A stretch of 42,436 nucleotides of DNA from Desulfuromonas sp. (GTDB lineage Bacteria; Desulfobacterota; Desulfuromonadia; Desulfuromonadales; BM501): NCBI RefSeq assembly GCF_002868845.1, contig NZ_PKUB01000015.1, positions 20,076 to 62,511 of the forward strand, given 5' to 3'. The position numbers were made by a program, and so were the translations under genes. The stretch's first letter is position 1. Each line of letters opens with the position of its first letter. This document shows, one piece after another, positions 2,338-37,074 of this stretch. The notes beneath the pieces were generated by a model. That model worked only from the letters and a program-made list of their open reading frames with translations, was not told where the DNA came from and made no database searches.

Positions 2338-3315
2338 ATGCTCCCCCCAACCCTGCACAACCTGACGCCCGGCGAGGTGCTCGCGATCGCGGCCAAGGCC
2401 AGAGAGCCTTTTGTCGCTGCCGCCGGGCAGATGCAGATCGACAATAACCTGGAGCAGGAGCTGGTCGACATCTACATCCCGCTGGCGGCCGCCCTGCAAC
2501 GAAACGCCTGCACCCATGACGGGCCCTTGCTGGTCGGCATCAACGGGGCCCAGGGCGCCGGCAAGTCGACGCTCTGCCGACTGCTGCAGACCGTGCTCGA
2601 ACAGGGGTGGGGCCGGCGGGTCGCAAGCCTCTCTATCGACGATCTCTACCTGACCCGCGCCGAGCGCCGCGGCCTGGCGAAACGGGTCCATCCCCTGCTG
2701 GCGACCCGGGGCGTCCCCGGCACCCATGATGTCGAACTCGGGCTGCGGCTCCTCGGTGCCCTGCGGCAGCTGCGGGACGGCCGGCGCCTGACGGTCCCGG
2801 TCTTCGACAAGGCGATCGACGACCGGCTGCCGAAGGATGAATGGCGCCATGTGGACGGCCCGCTCGACGTCATCCTCTTCGAAGGCTGGTGCGTCGGCGC
2901 CCTGCCTCAGCCGGAGGAGGAATTATCCCTGCCGGTCAACAGCCTCGAGCGCGAGGAGGACCCCGACCTGTCCTGGCGGCGCTACGTCAACGGCCAGCTC
3001 CGAGAGGACTACCGAAGGCTCTTCGCCGAGCTCGACGTCCTGATCATGCTGGAGGTTCCCGGGATGGAGAACGTCCTCGATTGGCGCGGCCTGCAGGAGC
3101 GGAAACTCGCCTCGGCCGCCGGGCAAAAAAAAGAGCACAAGATCATGGATGCCGCGGCGCTGCGCCGCTTCATCATGCACTACGAACGCCTGACCCGGGC
3201 GATGCTGGCCGAGATGCCGGGCCGCGCCGACATCGTCCTGAAGCTGAACGCCGGGCACCGGATCGACGGGGTGCGGATCAACGCCCCTGCCCCGAGCGGA
3301 GAGACCCGACCATGA
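2338..3315 (+). CDS. D-glycerate kinase (plant-type GLYK / P-loop family)
   Basis: A 325-aa P-loop kinase. Walker A is GINGAQGAGKSTLCRLL near residues 68-83, followed by VASLSIDDLYLTRAERR, the D-glycerate kinase signature. HPLLATRGVPGTHDVELG, VPVFDKAIDDRLP and the Walker B-like VILFEGWCVG also match plant-type glycerate kinase and its bacterial relatives. It phosphorylates D-glycerate. Here it could supply 3-phosphoglycerate as acceptor for the glucosylglycerate synthase downstream, and could recapture glycerate released by the phosphorylase. Start ATG has AAAGGAG 6 bp upstream. Its stop overlaps the next start (ATGA), showing tight translational coupling. Product choice (2- or 3-phosphoglycerate) is not visible in the sequence. 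Confidence 0.9.
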   Translation: MLPPTLHNLTPGEVLAIAAKAREPFVAAAGQMQIDNNLEQELVDIYIPLAAALQRNACTHDGPLLVGINGAQGAGKSTLCRLLQTVLEQGWGRRVASLSIDDLYLTRAERRGLAKRVHPLLATRGVPGTHDVELGLRLLGALRQLRDGRRLTVPVFDKAIDDRLPKDEWRHVDGPLDVILFEGWCVGALPQPEEELSLPVNSLEREEDPDLSWRRYVNGQLREDYRRLFAELDVLIMLEVPGMENVLDWRGLQERKLASAAGQKKEHKIMDAAALRRFIMHYERLTRAMLAEMPGRADIVLKLNAGHRIDGVRINAPAPSGETRP

Positions 3316-4148
3316 CCGACCTCCTCGTCTTCACCGACCTCGACGGCACCCTGCTCGACCATCACAGCTATTCGTACGAACCGGCCCTGCCGGCCCTGCA
3401 GCGGCTGGCCGCGGCGGCGGTTCCGGTCATCTTCAATTCGAGCAAGACGGCCGCCGAGATTGACCAGCTGCGGCGCGAGCTCGACAACCGTCACCCCTTT
3501 ATCGTCGAAAACGGCAGCGCCGTCTGCAGCCCCGCCGGGTATTTTATCCCCGACGCGCTCCCCGGGGCGCACGCCGGCCAGGCCTGCGCGGTTCGCACCT
3601 TCGGTCCGGGCTACCCCGACATCCTCGGCCGGCTGCATCGGATCCGCGAGGGCGCCGGCTGCCGTTTCAGGGGCTTTTCCGATATGACCCGCGATGAACT
3701 GGCCACGGTGACCGGCCTCGACCCGGCCGCCGCCGCCCGCGCCCAGCAGCGCCACGCCTCGGAACCTCTGCTCTGGGAGGATACCGATGCGGCCCTCGAA
3801 CAATTTCGCCGGGATCTGCGGAAGAGCGAACTGAGCCTGGTCAGGGGGGGCCGCTTCTTTCACGTCATGGGAGAGGTCGACAAGGCCGACGCCCTGCGCT
3901 GGTTGACGAACCGCTACCGGCAAACCTGGCCGAATCGGCGCTGGCAAACCGTCGCCCTCGGCGACAGCCCGAACGACCGGGCCATGCTCGAAGCCGCCGA
4001 TCTCGCCGTGACCATCCCCCCTGCGGAGGGCCGTCCGCTGCAACTTGCCCGGAACACGCACGTTATCTGCCCCGCGGACCCCGGCCCGAGAGGCTGGCAA
4101 GACGCCATGACCCGCATTCTGAACCGAGAGACCGACAAAGGAGCCTGA
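3312..4148 (+). CDS. gpgP: Glucosyl-/mannosyl-3-phosphoglycerate phosphatase (HAD family)
   Basis: A 278-aa HAD phosphatase of the MpgP/GpgP type. Motif I is FTDLDGTLLD (residues about 7-16), motif II FNSSKTAAEI, the substrate region HPFIVENGSAV, the lysine motif GEVDKADALRWL, and motifs III/IV LGDSPNDRAMLEAAD. It removes phosphate from glucosyl-3-phosphoglycerate (or the mannosyl form) to give the free compatible solute. The start overlaps the kinase stop by ATGA. The adjacent synthase is of the glucosyl type, so glucosyl-3-phosphoglycerate is the likely substrate; these phosphatases usually accept both sugars. Confidence 0.9.
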   Translation: MTDLLVFTDLDGTLLDHHSYSYEPALPALQRLAAAAVPVIFNSSKTAAEIDQLRRELDNRHPFIVENGSAVCSPAGYFIPDALPGAHAGQACAVRTFGPGYPDILGRLHRIREGAGCRFRGFSDMTRDELATVTGLDPAAAARAQQRHASEPLLWEDTDAALEQFRRDLRKSELSLVRGGRFFHVMGEVDKADALRWLTNRYRQTWPNRRWQTVALGDSPNDRAMLEAADLAVTIPPAEGRPLQLARNTHVICPADPGPRGWQDAMTRILNRETDKGA

Positions 4149-4150
4149 CC

Positions 4151-5380
4151 ATGGGGAATTTTTACCAGAACGGCGTCATCACCACGCTGCACAACCTGAC
4201 CCGACGTCCGCTGGCGGAACTCGAGGAGGAGCTGGTCCGCTTTGCCAAGCGCCGCCCGATGTCGCTGGTGCTGCCGTCGCTCTTTTCCGAACTGGAAGGG
4301 CCGGCCCTCGGCCCGATCCTCGACGAACTGACGAAGGTCCCCTACCTGGGCGAGATCGTCATCGGCCTCGACCGTGCCGACGAGGCGCAGTTCCGCTACG
4401 CCAGGGGGTATTTCGACCGGCTGCCGCAGCACCACCGGATTCTCTGGAACGACGGCCCCCGGCTGCGGGCCATCGACCGGATGTTGGCCGACAAGGGGCT
4501 GGCCCCCACGGAGATGGGCAAGGGCCGCAACGTCTGGTACTGCTACGGCTACATCCTCGCCTCGGGGCGGGCCAAGGCGATCGCCCTGCACGACTGCGAC
4601 ATCGTCACCTACTCCCGGGAACTCCTCGCCCGGCTGATCTACCCCGTCGCCAACCCCAACTTCAACTACCAGTTCTGCAAGGGGTACTACTCGCGGATCG
4701 CAGACGGCAAGCTCAACGGCCGGGCCTGCCGCCTGCTGGTGACGCCCCTGCTGAAGTCGCTGCAGAAGATCTTCGGCCACAACGAGTACCTCGAGTACAT
4801 GGACAGCTTCCGCTACGCCCTCGCCGGCGAATTCTCGATGCGGGTGGACGTCCTCAACGACCTGCGCATCCCGAGCGACTGGGGCCTGGAGATCGGCGTC
4901 ATCTCCGAGATGTACCGAAACTACGCCACCAACCGCATCTGCCAGGTCGACATCGCCGACACCTACGACCACAAGCACCAGGACCTCTCCGCCGACGACC
5001 CCCAGGGGGGCCTGTCGCGCATGAGCACCGACATCGTCAAGGCCGTCGTCCGCAAGCTCGCCACCCAGGGGCAGATCTTCTCCCTGGAGCGCTTCCGCAG
5101 CCTCAAGGCGACCTACTACCGGACCGCCCTCGACTTTATCGAGGCGTACTACAACGACGCCCTCATCAACGGCCTGACCCTCGATCGCCACAAGGAAGAG
5201 AAATCGGTGGAGCTCTTCGCCGAGAACATCATGCGAGCCGGCGAGATCTTCCTCTCCAACCCCATGGAGACCCCCTTCATGCCGAGCTGGAACCGGGTGG
5301 TCAGTGCCATTCCCGACATTTTCGAAAAACTCTACGAGGCCGTCGAAGCGGACAACCGCGAATTCCAGGGCCGGAGCTGA
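4151..5380 (+). CDS. gpgS: Glucosyl-3-phosphoglycerate synthase (GT81-like)
   Basis: A 409-aa retaining glycosyltransferase that joins glucose from a nucleotide sugar to 3-phosphoglycerate. Seen: VLPSLFSELEGPALGPILDEL, then EIVIGLDRADEAQF, the metal-binding DxD in ALHDCDIVTY (about residues 150-160), NFNYQFCKGYYSRI and RYALAGEFSMRVDVLNDLRIPSDWGLEIGVISE, all typical of bacterial and archaeal GpgS. It starts 2 bp after the phosphatase stop. Synthase and phosphatase together make the standard two-step glucosylglycerate pathway. No deletion, frameshift or missing catalytic element is visible. Confidence 0.93.
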   Translation: MGNFYQNGVITTLHNLTRRPLAELEEELVRFAKRRPMSLVLPSLFSELEGPALGPILDELTKVPYLGEIVIGLDRADEAQFRYARGYFDRLPQHHRILWNDGPRLRAIDRMLADKGLAPTEMGKGRNVWYCYGYILASGRAKAIALHDCDIVTYSRELLARLIYPVANPNFNYQFCKGYYSRIADGKLNGRACRLLVTPLLKSLQKIFGHNEYLEYMDSFRYALAGEFSMRVDVLNDLRIPSDWGLEIGVISEMYRNYATNRICQVDIADTYDHKHQDLSADDPQGGLSRMSTDIVKAVVRKLATQGQIFSLERFRSLKATYYRTALDFIEAYYNDALINGLTLDRHKEEKSVELFAENIMRAGEIFLSNPMETPFMPSWNRVVSAIPDIFEKLYEAVEADNREFQGRS

Positions 5381-5389
5381 CACGGACCG

Positions 5390-7153
5390 ATGGAAAAGAG
5401 ATCGATCGAGACATTCATCCAGGCCGCGGCGCCCAGGCTTCAGCGCCTCTACGGCGCCAACCAGGCCCCGCTGCTCCTCGATGAAATCACCTCGCTGCTG
5501 CAAAGCCACCGCGCGGCAGGATCGGCTGCCCGATGCGAACGCTGGGACCAGGAGGATGTGATCCTGATCTCCTACGGCGACAGCATTCGCACCGGCGGCG
5601 AAGCGCCGCTGCGGACGTTGGGGCGGTTTCTCCGCGAACACCTCGAAGGGTTGATCAGCACGGTCCATATCCTGCCCTTCTTCCCGTTCAGTTCCGATGA
5701 CGGCTTCTCGGTGATCGACTACGCCGCCGTCGACCCGGAGCTGGGAGACTGGAAGGATATCGCCGCGATCAGGCAGGATTTCGACCTGATGATCGACCTG
5801 GTGATCAACCACGTCTCGCGCGAAAGCCTGTGGTTCATCGATTTCATCAACAACCGGCCGCCGGCCTGCTATTACTTCATCGAGATGGACCCCCAGGTCG
5901 ACCTCAGCGATGTCGTCCGGCCCCGCCAGAACAAGGTGCTGACCCCGGTCCACACCCATCGCGGCCTGAAGCACGTCTGGTCGACCTTCAGCGAAGACCA
6001 GATCGACCTGAATTTCGCCAACCCCAACGTCCTGCTCTAATTCGTCCGCATCCTGCTCCTCTACCTGCGCCGGGGCGGCCGATTCATCAGGCTCGACGCC
6101 ATCGCCTACCTCTGGAAGAAGCTCGGCACCTCCTGCATCAACCTCGAACATACCCACGAGATCGTCAAATTGCTGCGGGAAGTGATGGACGCAGCGGCCC
6201 CCGACGCGGTTCTGCTCACCGAGACCAACCTGCCCCACGCCCAGAACCATAGCTACTACGGCGACGGCGACGAAGCGCACATGGTCTACCAGTTCAGCCT
6301 CGCCCCCCTGCTGCTGCACGCCCTGCACCGCGGCACCAGCCGTTATCTCAACGAGTGGGCCCGAAACCGCTGCACCGCTCCGGAGGGCTGCACCTTCCTC
6401 AACTTCACCGCCTCGCACGACGGCATCGGCCTGCGCCCGGCCGAAGGCCTGATCCCCCAGTCGGAGATCGAGGCGCTGATCGAGTCGATGCACGGCTTCG
6501 GCGGCTACGTCAGCATGAAGAGCAATCCCGACGGCAGCAACAGCCCCTACGAGATCAACATCTCCTATTTCGACGCCCTGCAGGGGACGGCGGGCGGCCG
6601 GGACCAGTGGCAGGTCCCCCGGTTCCTGGCCTCGCAAACGGTCATGCTGGCCATCAAGGGGATCCCGGCCCTCTACGTCCAGAGCCTGATCGCCTCGCCC
6701 AACGATCTGGAAGGGGTCGAAAAGACCGGCCGGACCCGGTCCATCAACCGCCGCAAATGGGACTATGGCCAGCTCTCCGGGTTGATCCGGAACCCTTACA
6801 CCCCGAACAACCTGGTTTTCCATGAACTGCGCCGGCTGCTCGCGATCCGTCGGCAGCAGCCGGCCTTTCACCCCGACGCAGGCCAGGAGATCCTCGCCCT
6901 CGGTGACGCGTTCTTCGGCGTTCGGCGACTTTCGGCTTCGTCGGAACAGGAGATCCTCGCCATCAGCAATCTGACCGAATGGCCGCAGCGCCTCTGCCTG
7001 CAGCCGCAAACCGGCCTGTCACTGACGGATCGCAGCTTTGACCTGATCGGCAACGGACCGGTCACAATGGTCAATGAAGCGACGATCCTGCAGCCTTACC
7101 AGACCCTTTGGTTGGCAGAAAAACAGCCCGCGAAGAAGGTCGCGAAACCATAA
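5390..7153 (+). pseudogene. Glucosylglycerate (sucrose phosphorylase-like, GH13_18) phosphorylase interrupted by in-frame TAA
   Basis: A 587-codon frame of the sucrose phosphorylase/glucosylglycerate phosphorylase family, which splits glucosylglycerate with phosphate to glucose 1-phosphate and glycerate. The N-terminal part (216 aa) includes LISYGDSIRTGGEAPL, HILPFFPFSSDDGFSVIDY and EDQIDLNFANPNVLL. Then comes TAA (6038-6040), and the same frame continues FVRILLLYLRRGGRFIRLDAIAYLWK, TETNLPHAQNHSYYGDGDEAHMVYQF and FTASHDGIGLRP. The expected residue at the stop is Glu (NPEVLLEF in relatives), so GAA to TAA is the simplest explanation. All three catalytic carboxylates (nucleophile Asp in IRLDAI, acid/base Glu in TETN, Asp in SHDGIG) lie after the stop. 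If the stop is real, the first fragment is inactive; an internal start at 6170 gives a piece lacking the nucleophile. Confidence 0.85.
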
Positions 7154-35917: not shown

Positions 35918-37074
35918 CCGGCCGCCCCCGACGCCTGCCCGTCTTCGAAATATTCCAGGATCTGCAGGAAGTTCGCCGCCAGGGCCGGATGCAATACGGT
36001 CCCCGCCGCGGCGCGCACCCGGGCGGCGACCAGCTCCTTCGAAAGGGCGTCGCGATAGGCCCGGCGGGTGCGCTGGGCGTCGTAGAAATCGGAGACGGTG
36101 GTCAACTGGCTGCAGAGATTCTGCCGCCACCCGGATGCCACACGTGGGTAGCCGGCCCCCTCGAAATGGATGTGATGCTCGAAGGCGGCCACCGCCGCCA
36201 GGCGCGGAACCCCGGGGGTTTCGAGCAGGTAGCGGGCGCCCGTCCGGGGGTGCTGGCGGATCAGTCCCCACTCCTCCTCGGTCAGGGAATCCGGCTTGTT
36301 GAGGACCTCCCCGGGGATGAAGAGCTTGCCCACGTCGTGGAGCATGGCGGCGACCCCGATGTCGTGGAGCAGAGGCCCCTCGATGCCGAGAGCCATGGCC
36401 TGGGCCAGGGTGAGGATGCAGACGTTGACCGAATGGACGAAGGTGTAGTCGTCCCGCTCCTTCATCGGGGCCAGGGCCAGGAAAGGGTTGGACGCACCAG
36501 CCAGGGCCTCGGCGAACTCGGTCACCACCTCCGAGATGCCCGCGGAATGAAGCCTGCGGCGCTTGCGGACCCCCTCGAAAATCTCCGCTCCACACTCCTG
36601 CCCCGCAGAGAGACGCTCGAGGCGGGCATGCACCTTGGAGCCCCCGCCTTTTCCGTCCAGGGCGGGGGAGGGGCCGCGCACGTCGACCTGCCCCAGGCGG
36701 ATCCTGCCCGAAGCTCCCAGCGATCCCGAACCGGGCCCGCCCCGGGTCAGAACGCCGACCAGCGCCTTCAGATCCTCCCTCCCGACCCCCCTCAACAGCT
36801 GGATGTGACCGATTCCCCGGGCGCGAAGAATGCGGGCGAAACGCTCCAGGTGCATGCTCCCGGCCAGGGGGCATCAGGCAAAGACCAGCTCCTCCTCGAC
36901 CAACATCAGGGCCACCTCGTCCTCGCCGGCCAGGGCCTCTTCCAGGCAGGAATAGGCGCTTCCGAGCAGGGCCTCGACCTGCCGGTGCTCCGGAGAATAA
37001 AGCGAAGCGTTGGCGGCGGCCATCACCAGGCGGCGCACAAAGCCTTCGACGCTGTTCATGCGGTCGGTATCCAT
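35914..37074 (-). pseudogene. HD-GYP domain protein interrupted by in-frame TGA
   Basis: A 386-codon frame with one internal TGA (36874-36876). The first 66 residues (FVRRLVMAAANASLYSPEHRQVEALLG...LVEEELVFA) are an N-terminal module also found at the start of the neighbouring HEAT protein. After the TGA the same frame continues CPLAGSMHLERFARILRARGIGHIQLLRGVGREDL and then the HD-GYP phosphodiesterase domain: VHSVNVCILTLA, MLHDVGKLFIP (HD motif), HPRTGARYLL, FEHHIHFEGAGYP (GYP motif). GGA to TGA is the simplest origin. RBS GAGGAA overlaps the HEAT stop. If the stop is real, a 313-aa product could start at the Met at 36855 with an intact HD-GYP domain but without the N-terminal module. Predicted role: c-di-GMP hydrolysis. 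Confidence 0.85.

Follow-up and report, generated by a model that had tools for sequence, protein, structure and literature searches.

Glucosylglycerate phosphorylase (GGaP; EC 2.4.1.352) is a GH13_18 enzyme that has been characterised from Meiothermus silvanus, Spirochaeta thermophila and E. coli, and the part of a review that deals with it gives two sequence marks, a (T/S)ETN motif and a Glu in loop A (PMC7178133). The reaction, as described in the relevant part of a second source, splits glucosylglycerate into glucose 1-phosphate and D-glycerate (PMC11009771). A gene of the window, by which we mean the whole stretch of 42,436 nucleotides of Desulfuromonas sp. that was analysed, resembles these enzymes in its GH13_18 homology, its TETN motif, its loop A Glu and its neighbours for glucosylglycerate synthesis. 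In contrast to the enzymes characterised in that review, it carries one TAA at codon 217 of the assembled sequence, and its activity is a predicted one. The gene and its neighbours are laid out as follows.

2338..3315, plus strand: P-loop kinase that may be a glycerate kinase; family matches all weak
3306..4148, plus strand: HAD-IIB phosphatase (mannosyl-3-phosphoglycerate phosphatase family), which is probably the partner of GpgS; TIGR01486, 244.8 bits, above the cut-off
4151..5380, plus strand: glucosyl-3-phosphoglycerate synthase (GpgS); NF040724, 369.6 bits, below the cut-off of 700; frame open and conserved
5390..6037, plus strand: the 216 codons of GGaP (GH13_18 phosphorylase) that precede the stop; TIGR03852 profile positions 2-163
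6038..6040, plus strand: in-frame TAA at codon 217, where 66 of the 85 other homologues have Glu
6041..7150, plus strand: GGaP, part after the stop, frame unchanged; 370 codons, TIGR03852 positions 180-458, carrying the catalytic residues
6095..6097, plus strand: codon of Asp236, positioned by alignment with PDB sucrose phosphorylases
6170..6172, plus strand: TTG, codon 261, the first ATG, GTG or TTG in frame past the TAA; downstream of the nucleophile codon
6218..6229, plus strand: TETN motif, codons 277-280, a mark of GGaP that includes Glu278; motif as given in PMC7178133
6419..6421, plus strand: codon of Asp344, positioned by alignment with PDB sucrose phosphorylases
6551..6553, plus strand: codon of Glu388 in loop A, a mark of GGaP where most other clades have Gln (PMC7178133)

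The frame that holds this TAA runs from an ATG at 5390 to a terminal TAA at 7151-7153. NCBIfam model TIGR03852 matches the two halves consecutively, each half alone scoring below the model cut-off, and Pfam PF00128 matches the upstream half only. The best matches of the gene include sucrose and glucosylglycerol phosphorylases of the PDB, and both marks of GGaP are present, TETN at codons 277-280 and Glu388 opposite the Gln of the PDB chains. Judged from its sequence, the gene is by family an ordinary glucosylglycerate phosphorylase. By family position we take Asp236 to be the nucleophile, Glu278 the acid/base and Asp344 the third catalytic residue. The sequence-only reading of this DNA had described a single TAA splitting one GH13_18 frame ahead of all three catalytic residues, and both statements are borne out.

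That reading had also expected Glu at the interrupted codon, with GAA changed to TAA, and comparison with the orthologous loci of relatives, which it had proposed as a check, agrees: they carry a sense codon, mostly for Glu. The alignment comprises 86 sequences (94 before removal of eight loci that partly repeat GGaP, one of them the window's own), and codon 217 of the 85 other homologues encodes E in 66, K in 7, A in 5, R in 3, Q in 3 and T in 1. The four nearest homologues (77, 77, 75 and 65% identity) have GAA or GAG. Glu is thus usual at this position but not invariant, and the position is not a catalytic one.

Of the 129 columns with a conservation of 95% or more, GGaP has the conserved residue at 128, and the exception, Y290, is common to its nearest relatives. 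Because both halves stay conserved, the TAA-split GGaP is more than a product of chance. We looked for relaxed constraint after the TAA and found no private deviation at the 129 conserved columns, as would also be the case for a very recent lesion. Downstream of the stop the window has 16 private changes and L083 has 25 when L004 serves as outgroup; with L002 in that role the counts are 30 and 27. A conserved GGaP without decay implies that the stop is very young, or is read through, or is absent from the organism.

Upstream, GpgS agrees with 68 homologous loci, a count that includes duplicates, at every column conserved to 97% or more, and the synthase appears to be intact. Among the 136 genomes of the order, own genome included, GGaP is matched at E <=1e-100 in 13 and GpgS at E <=1e-20 in 17. 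A GpgS match at E <=1e-20 is unaccompanied by a GGaP match at 1e-100 in four genomes (G120, G042, G054 and G043), three of which are at most 80% complete. In G031 the GGaP match is divided between two contigs (L086 and L107), covering codons 8-387 at 69% and 412-577 at 53% identity.

The TAA of GGaP is most probably an error of the assembled consensus, and the organism would then have an intact gene. The argument for this comes from the rest of the assembly. Sixty further stretches of the genome were scanned together with the window (61 in all; 1,189,933 bases, or 1.19 of 3.70 Mb) for stop codons with a same-frame coding pattern on both flanks. Relatives at strain level were looked for; among the genomes compared, the own genome alone represents its family, and the 80 loci retained in the contig scan have a best-segment identity of <=77%. 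Stricter initial thresholds flagged no stops and missed the known TAA of GGaP, and they were then lowered. The scan flagged 119 stops (108 with the codon model retrained on all stretches), many of them at two adjoining genes. By eye, 77 were put aside as gene ends, overlaps or non-coding; these 77 include the TAA of GGaP, which was tallied separately, and a formate dehydrogenase TGA. The 42 others were judged by eye to be intragenic, and four of these may be selenocysteine codons; the remaining 38 are 28 TAG, 6 TAA and 4 TGA. Recall on artificial stops was 415/600, and 348/500 with the retrained model.

TGAs that by eye resemble selenocysteine codons lie in a peroxiredoxin (L154 6084), a HesB-like gene (L157 13532), a rhodanese-like gene (L170 5547) and a formate dehydrogenase (L176 9387); for the rhodanese-like gene, the matches in the related genomes G029 and G045, among those listed, each have one TGA too. 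The window itself holds an in-frame TGA at 36874-36876 (minus strand) within one apparent coding region, for which a 42% identical relative in G029 has Glu. Two in-frame TAGs (L171 3455 and 1880, minus strand) fall in one apparent alpha-amylase-like gene, and both relatives have Ser (TCG) at the first.

Segments around 41 of the 42 picked stops were searched in G029, G045 and the own genome, and 45 matched places among those listed were fetched and aligned. Relatives show a sense codon at all 27 sites (of the 42) that could be aligned through the stop. Glu is what they have, for instance, at the nuoH, bioA, gmk and aspS stops and at those of a histidine kinase and an RND pump, the names being assigned by eye except where a profile was used. 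Both halves of gmk, bioA, ilvD and fabH match consecutive parts of one NCBIfam profile, and for nuoH the downstream half alone scored on its profile. A G045 paralogue of an HTH gene, outside the 45 fetched places, is listed with a TGA in its matched range.

The sites agree in the kind of change. We call a site interpretable where the relatives share a residue whose codon is a single step from the stop, which holds for 17 of the 27 and for GGaP, 18 in total; the other ten are L169 (TGA, relative Cys) and nine sites where relatives differ among themselves or lie at more than one step. G:C>T:A fits 16 of the 18 (13 Glu, 2 Ser and 1 Gly), GGaP among them, and the remaining two are Lys; Gln, Trp and Arg do not occur. 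Uniform mutation with the genome's own codon usage predicts a fraction of 0.483 in this class (P of at least 16 = 0.0004). Among the picked stops, TAA and TAG are preceded by C in 17 cases, G in 11, T in 5 and A in 1.

Applied to related genomes, the same scan gave 10 flagged stops for G029 (300 kb) and 22 for G045 (400 kb). In these 0.7 Mb no intragenic TAA or TAG was evident, the flagged sites being by eye gene ends or non-coding, except for TGA sites that resemble selenocysteine (L323 2634 and perhaps L317 8406). Flagged stops without a nearby ATG, GTG or TTG number 14 in 1.19 Mb here and 0 in G029 and G045, where about 6 would be expected at an equal rate after adjustment for recall (222/500 and 272/500; P 0.0025). 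The controls are, however, lower in G+C (0.513 and 0.580 versus 0.633) and in recall, which counts against the reading as an error: at lower G+C chance start codons are commoner, so a zero is favoured in the controls.

Essential genes are hit as well, in aspS and gmk, too few for a comparison of rates with other genes. An in-frame TAA lies in aspS (L309 / L185 12532, minus strand; own genome C13:31671-33416), where two relatives have Glu. Numbered from the first Met in this frame, it falls at codon 275 of 567; translation probably starts further upstream. TIGR00459 gives seven matches, of which one exceeds the cut-off; this is the only full-length aspS, and the TAA is inside it. A cell without AspRS is not viable, so the stop in aspS should be absent from the living genome. 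The gene gmk has an in-frame TAG between halves that fall on one profile, with one gmk match among those listed. Stops like these two, in aspS and in gmk, are hardly compatible with a living cell. The stops in fabH and nuoH weigh less, because the matches listed include second copies whose matched range is free of stops.

A similar bias is seen in missense changes. We compared 29 genes of the ribosomal operon (L174) with those of eight relatives; the frames were chosen as open ones, hence this comparison is silent on stops. At 34 of the 2502 columns on which the relatives are unanimous, the own genome alone differs. Its 29 one-step changes include 12 that are clearly G:C>T:A (15 including ambiguous ones), as opposed to 61 of 454 (98 including ambiguous ones) in the eight relatives pooled; for clear changes the excess has a Fisher P of 0.0004. 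Several private changes in rplB (L174 2113-2937) affect positions of L2 that are otherwise conserved and belong to the G:C>T:A class, among them Gly12Cys, Gly152Val and Pro248Thr.

Taken together, one substitution class is in excess at nonsense sites, it affects essential and dispensable genes alike and also conserved missense sites, and it is not evident in relatives, so an error of the consensus is the simplest explanation. The assembly would carry a genome-wide excess of G:C>T:A differences, roughly one to a few per thousand G:C pairs; the 38 picked stops, with a recall of 0.69 and some 36,000 targets, give a rough rate of 1.5 per thousand targets. Falling on the first base of a Glu codon, such a change would give TAA or TAG in any gene, essential or not. 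We infer that the differences are absent from the organism itself and may stem from a damaged or error-prone template, as from oxidised guanine. The organism would then probably possess a working GGaP that converts glucosylglycerate to glucose 1-phosphate and D-glycerate.

Several observations count against this explanation. The 42 sites were chosen by eye. Among the nine one-step private amino-acid changes of GGaP, one is clearly and one ambiguously G:C>T:A, which is no excess. The total of private deviations in the ribosomal operon is low, 34 versus 43 to 118 in the relatives. The picked sites are not clustered by stretch (P 0.12; 38 of the 42 sites, the four possible selenocysteine TGAs being removed), and the absence of clusters speaks against an error because varying read depth might have produced them. 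Nor does the contiguity of the assembly, 3.7 Mb in 56 contigs, point to low depth.

A true and very recent nonsense mutation that inactivates GGaP, leaving a strain that makes glucosylglycerate and cannot phosphorolyse it, is an unlikely alternative. It would account for a single lesion in a frame otherwise intact, and GGaP ends the cluster, with the next gene on the opposite strand, so that no downstream gene is affected. No second copy of GGaP was found in the own genome, and a search for an alternative sink, glucosylglycerate hydrolase, presumably of family GH63, gave no PF03200 match (the control matched in 3 of 14). Against such a mutation stand the dozens of like stops in the assembly, aspS and gmk included, in view of which a stop in the assembly says little about the organism. 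The sequence-only reading had held that the strain can make glucosylglycerate but not recover it by phosphorolysis; the first part is supported in that GpgS looks intact, whereas the loss of the enzyme in the organism is unsupported, given those stops and the lack of evident ones in the control samples. The idea of a broken recycling pathway is probably wrong and is best withheld.

It is very unlikely that the changes are real and that the stop in GGaP is one product of a lineage with strong recent G:C>T:A mutation, a mutator of the 8-oxoguanine type. The spectrum at the stops and the missense excess would both fit. However, a TAA lies in the only full-length aspS, no suppressor tRNA is among the 45 tRNA genes found, and the frame of mutY, the one such gene examined and judged by its frame alone, is open. 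A natural hypermutator of this kind that tolerates the stops in aspS and gmk, for which we see equally little likelihood, would have to read through or bypass them by means not among the tRNA genes found; if real, the changes would make this genome a remarkable example of hypermutation.

Decoding of the stops, mainly as Glu, is scarcely credible. Relatives do have Glu at most interpretable sites and GGaP keeps its conserved residues after the stop, but TAA, TAG and TGA are all affected, Ser and Gly sites are among them, GGaP itself terminates with TAA, and no anticodon reading a stop occurs among the 45 tRNA genes found, a set that lacks some usual tRNAs and tRNA-Sec. Equally hard to credit is a two-part enzyme formed by translation restart, since, despite the conservation of both halves, the first in-frame ATG, GTG or TTG past the stop is codon 261, beyond Asp236, and the restarted product would be without the nucleophile.

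If an error of the consensus is the right reading, the claimed loss of glucosylglycerate recycling should stay out of annotation and physiology, and lone in-frame stops in this assembly are suspect. Before a nonsense codon in a draft genome is taken to break a pathway, it is worth comparing with the remainder of that assembly, beginning with essential genes. Bacterial pseudogenes can arise by single nonsense mutation, and the GGaP gene is like them in having one stop and a frame otherwise intact; it is unlike them in that its stop resembles those in aspS and gmk and belongs with them to one substitution class. Oxidative damage ex vivo is reported to give G>T mismatches (PMC12390751). The case described here differs from that sequencing artefact in being found in the assembled consensus, which normal read depth should clear, and resembles it in consisting of one substitution class that is indifferent to gene function.
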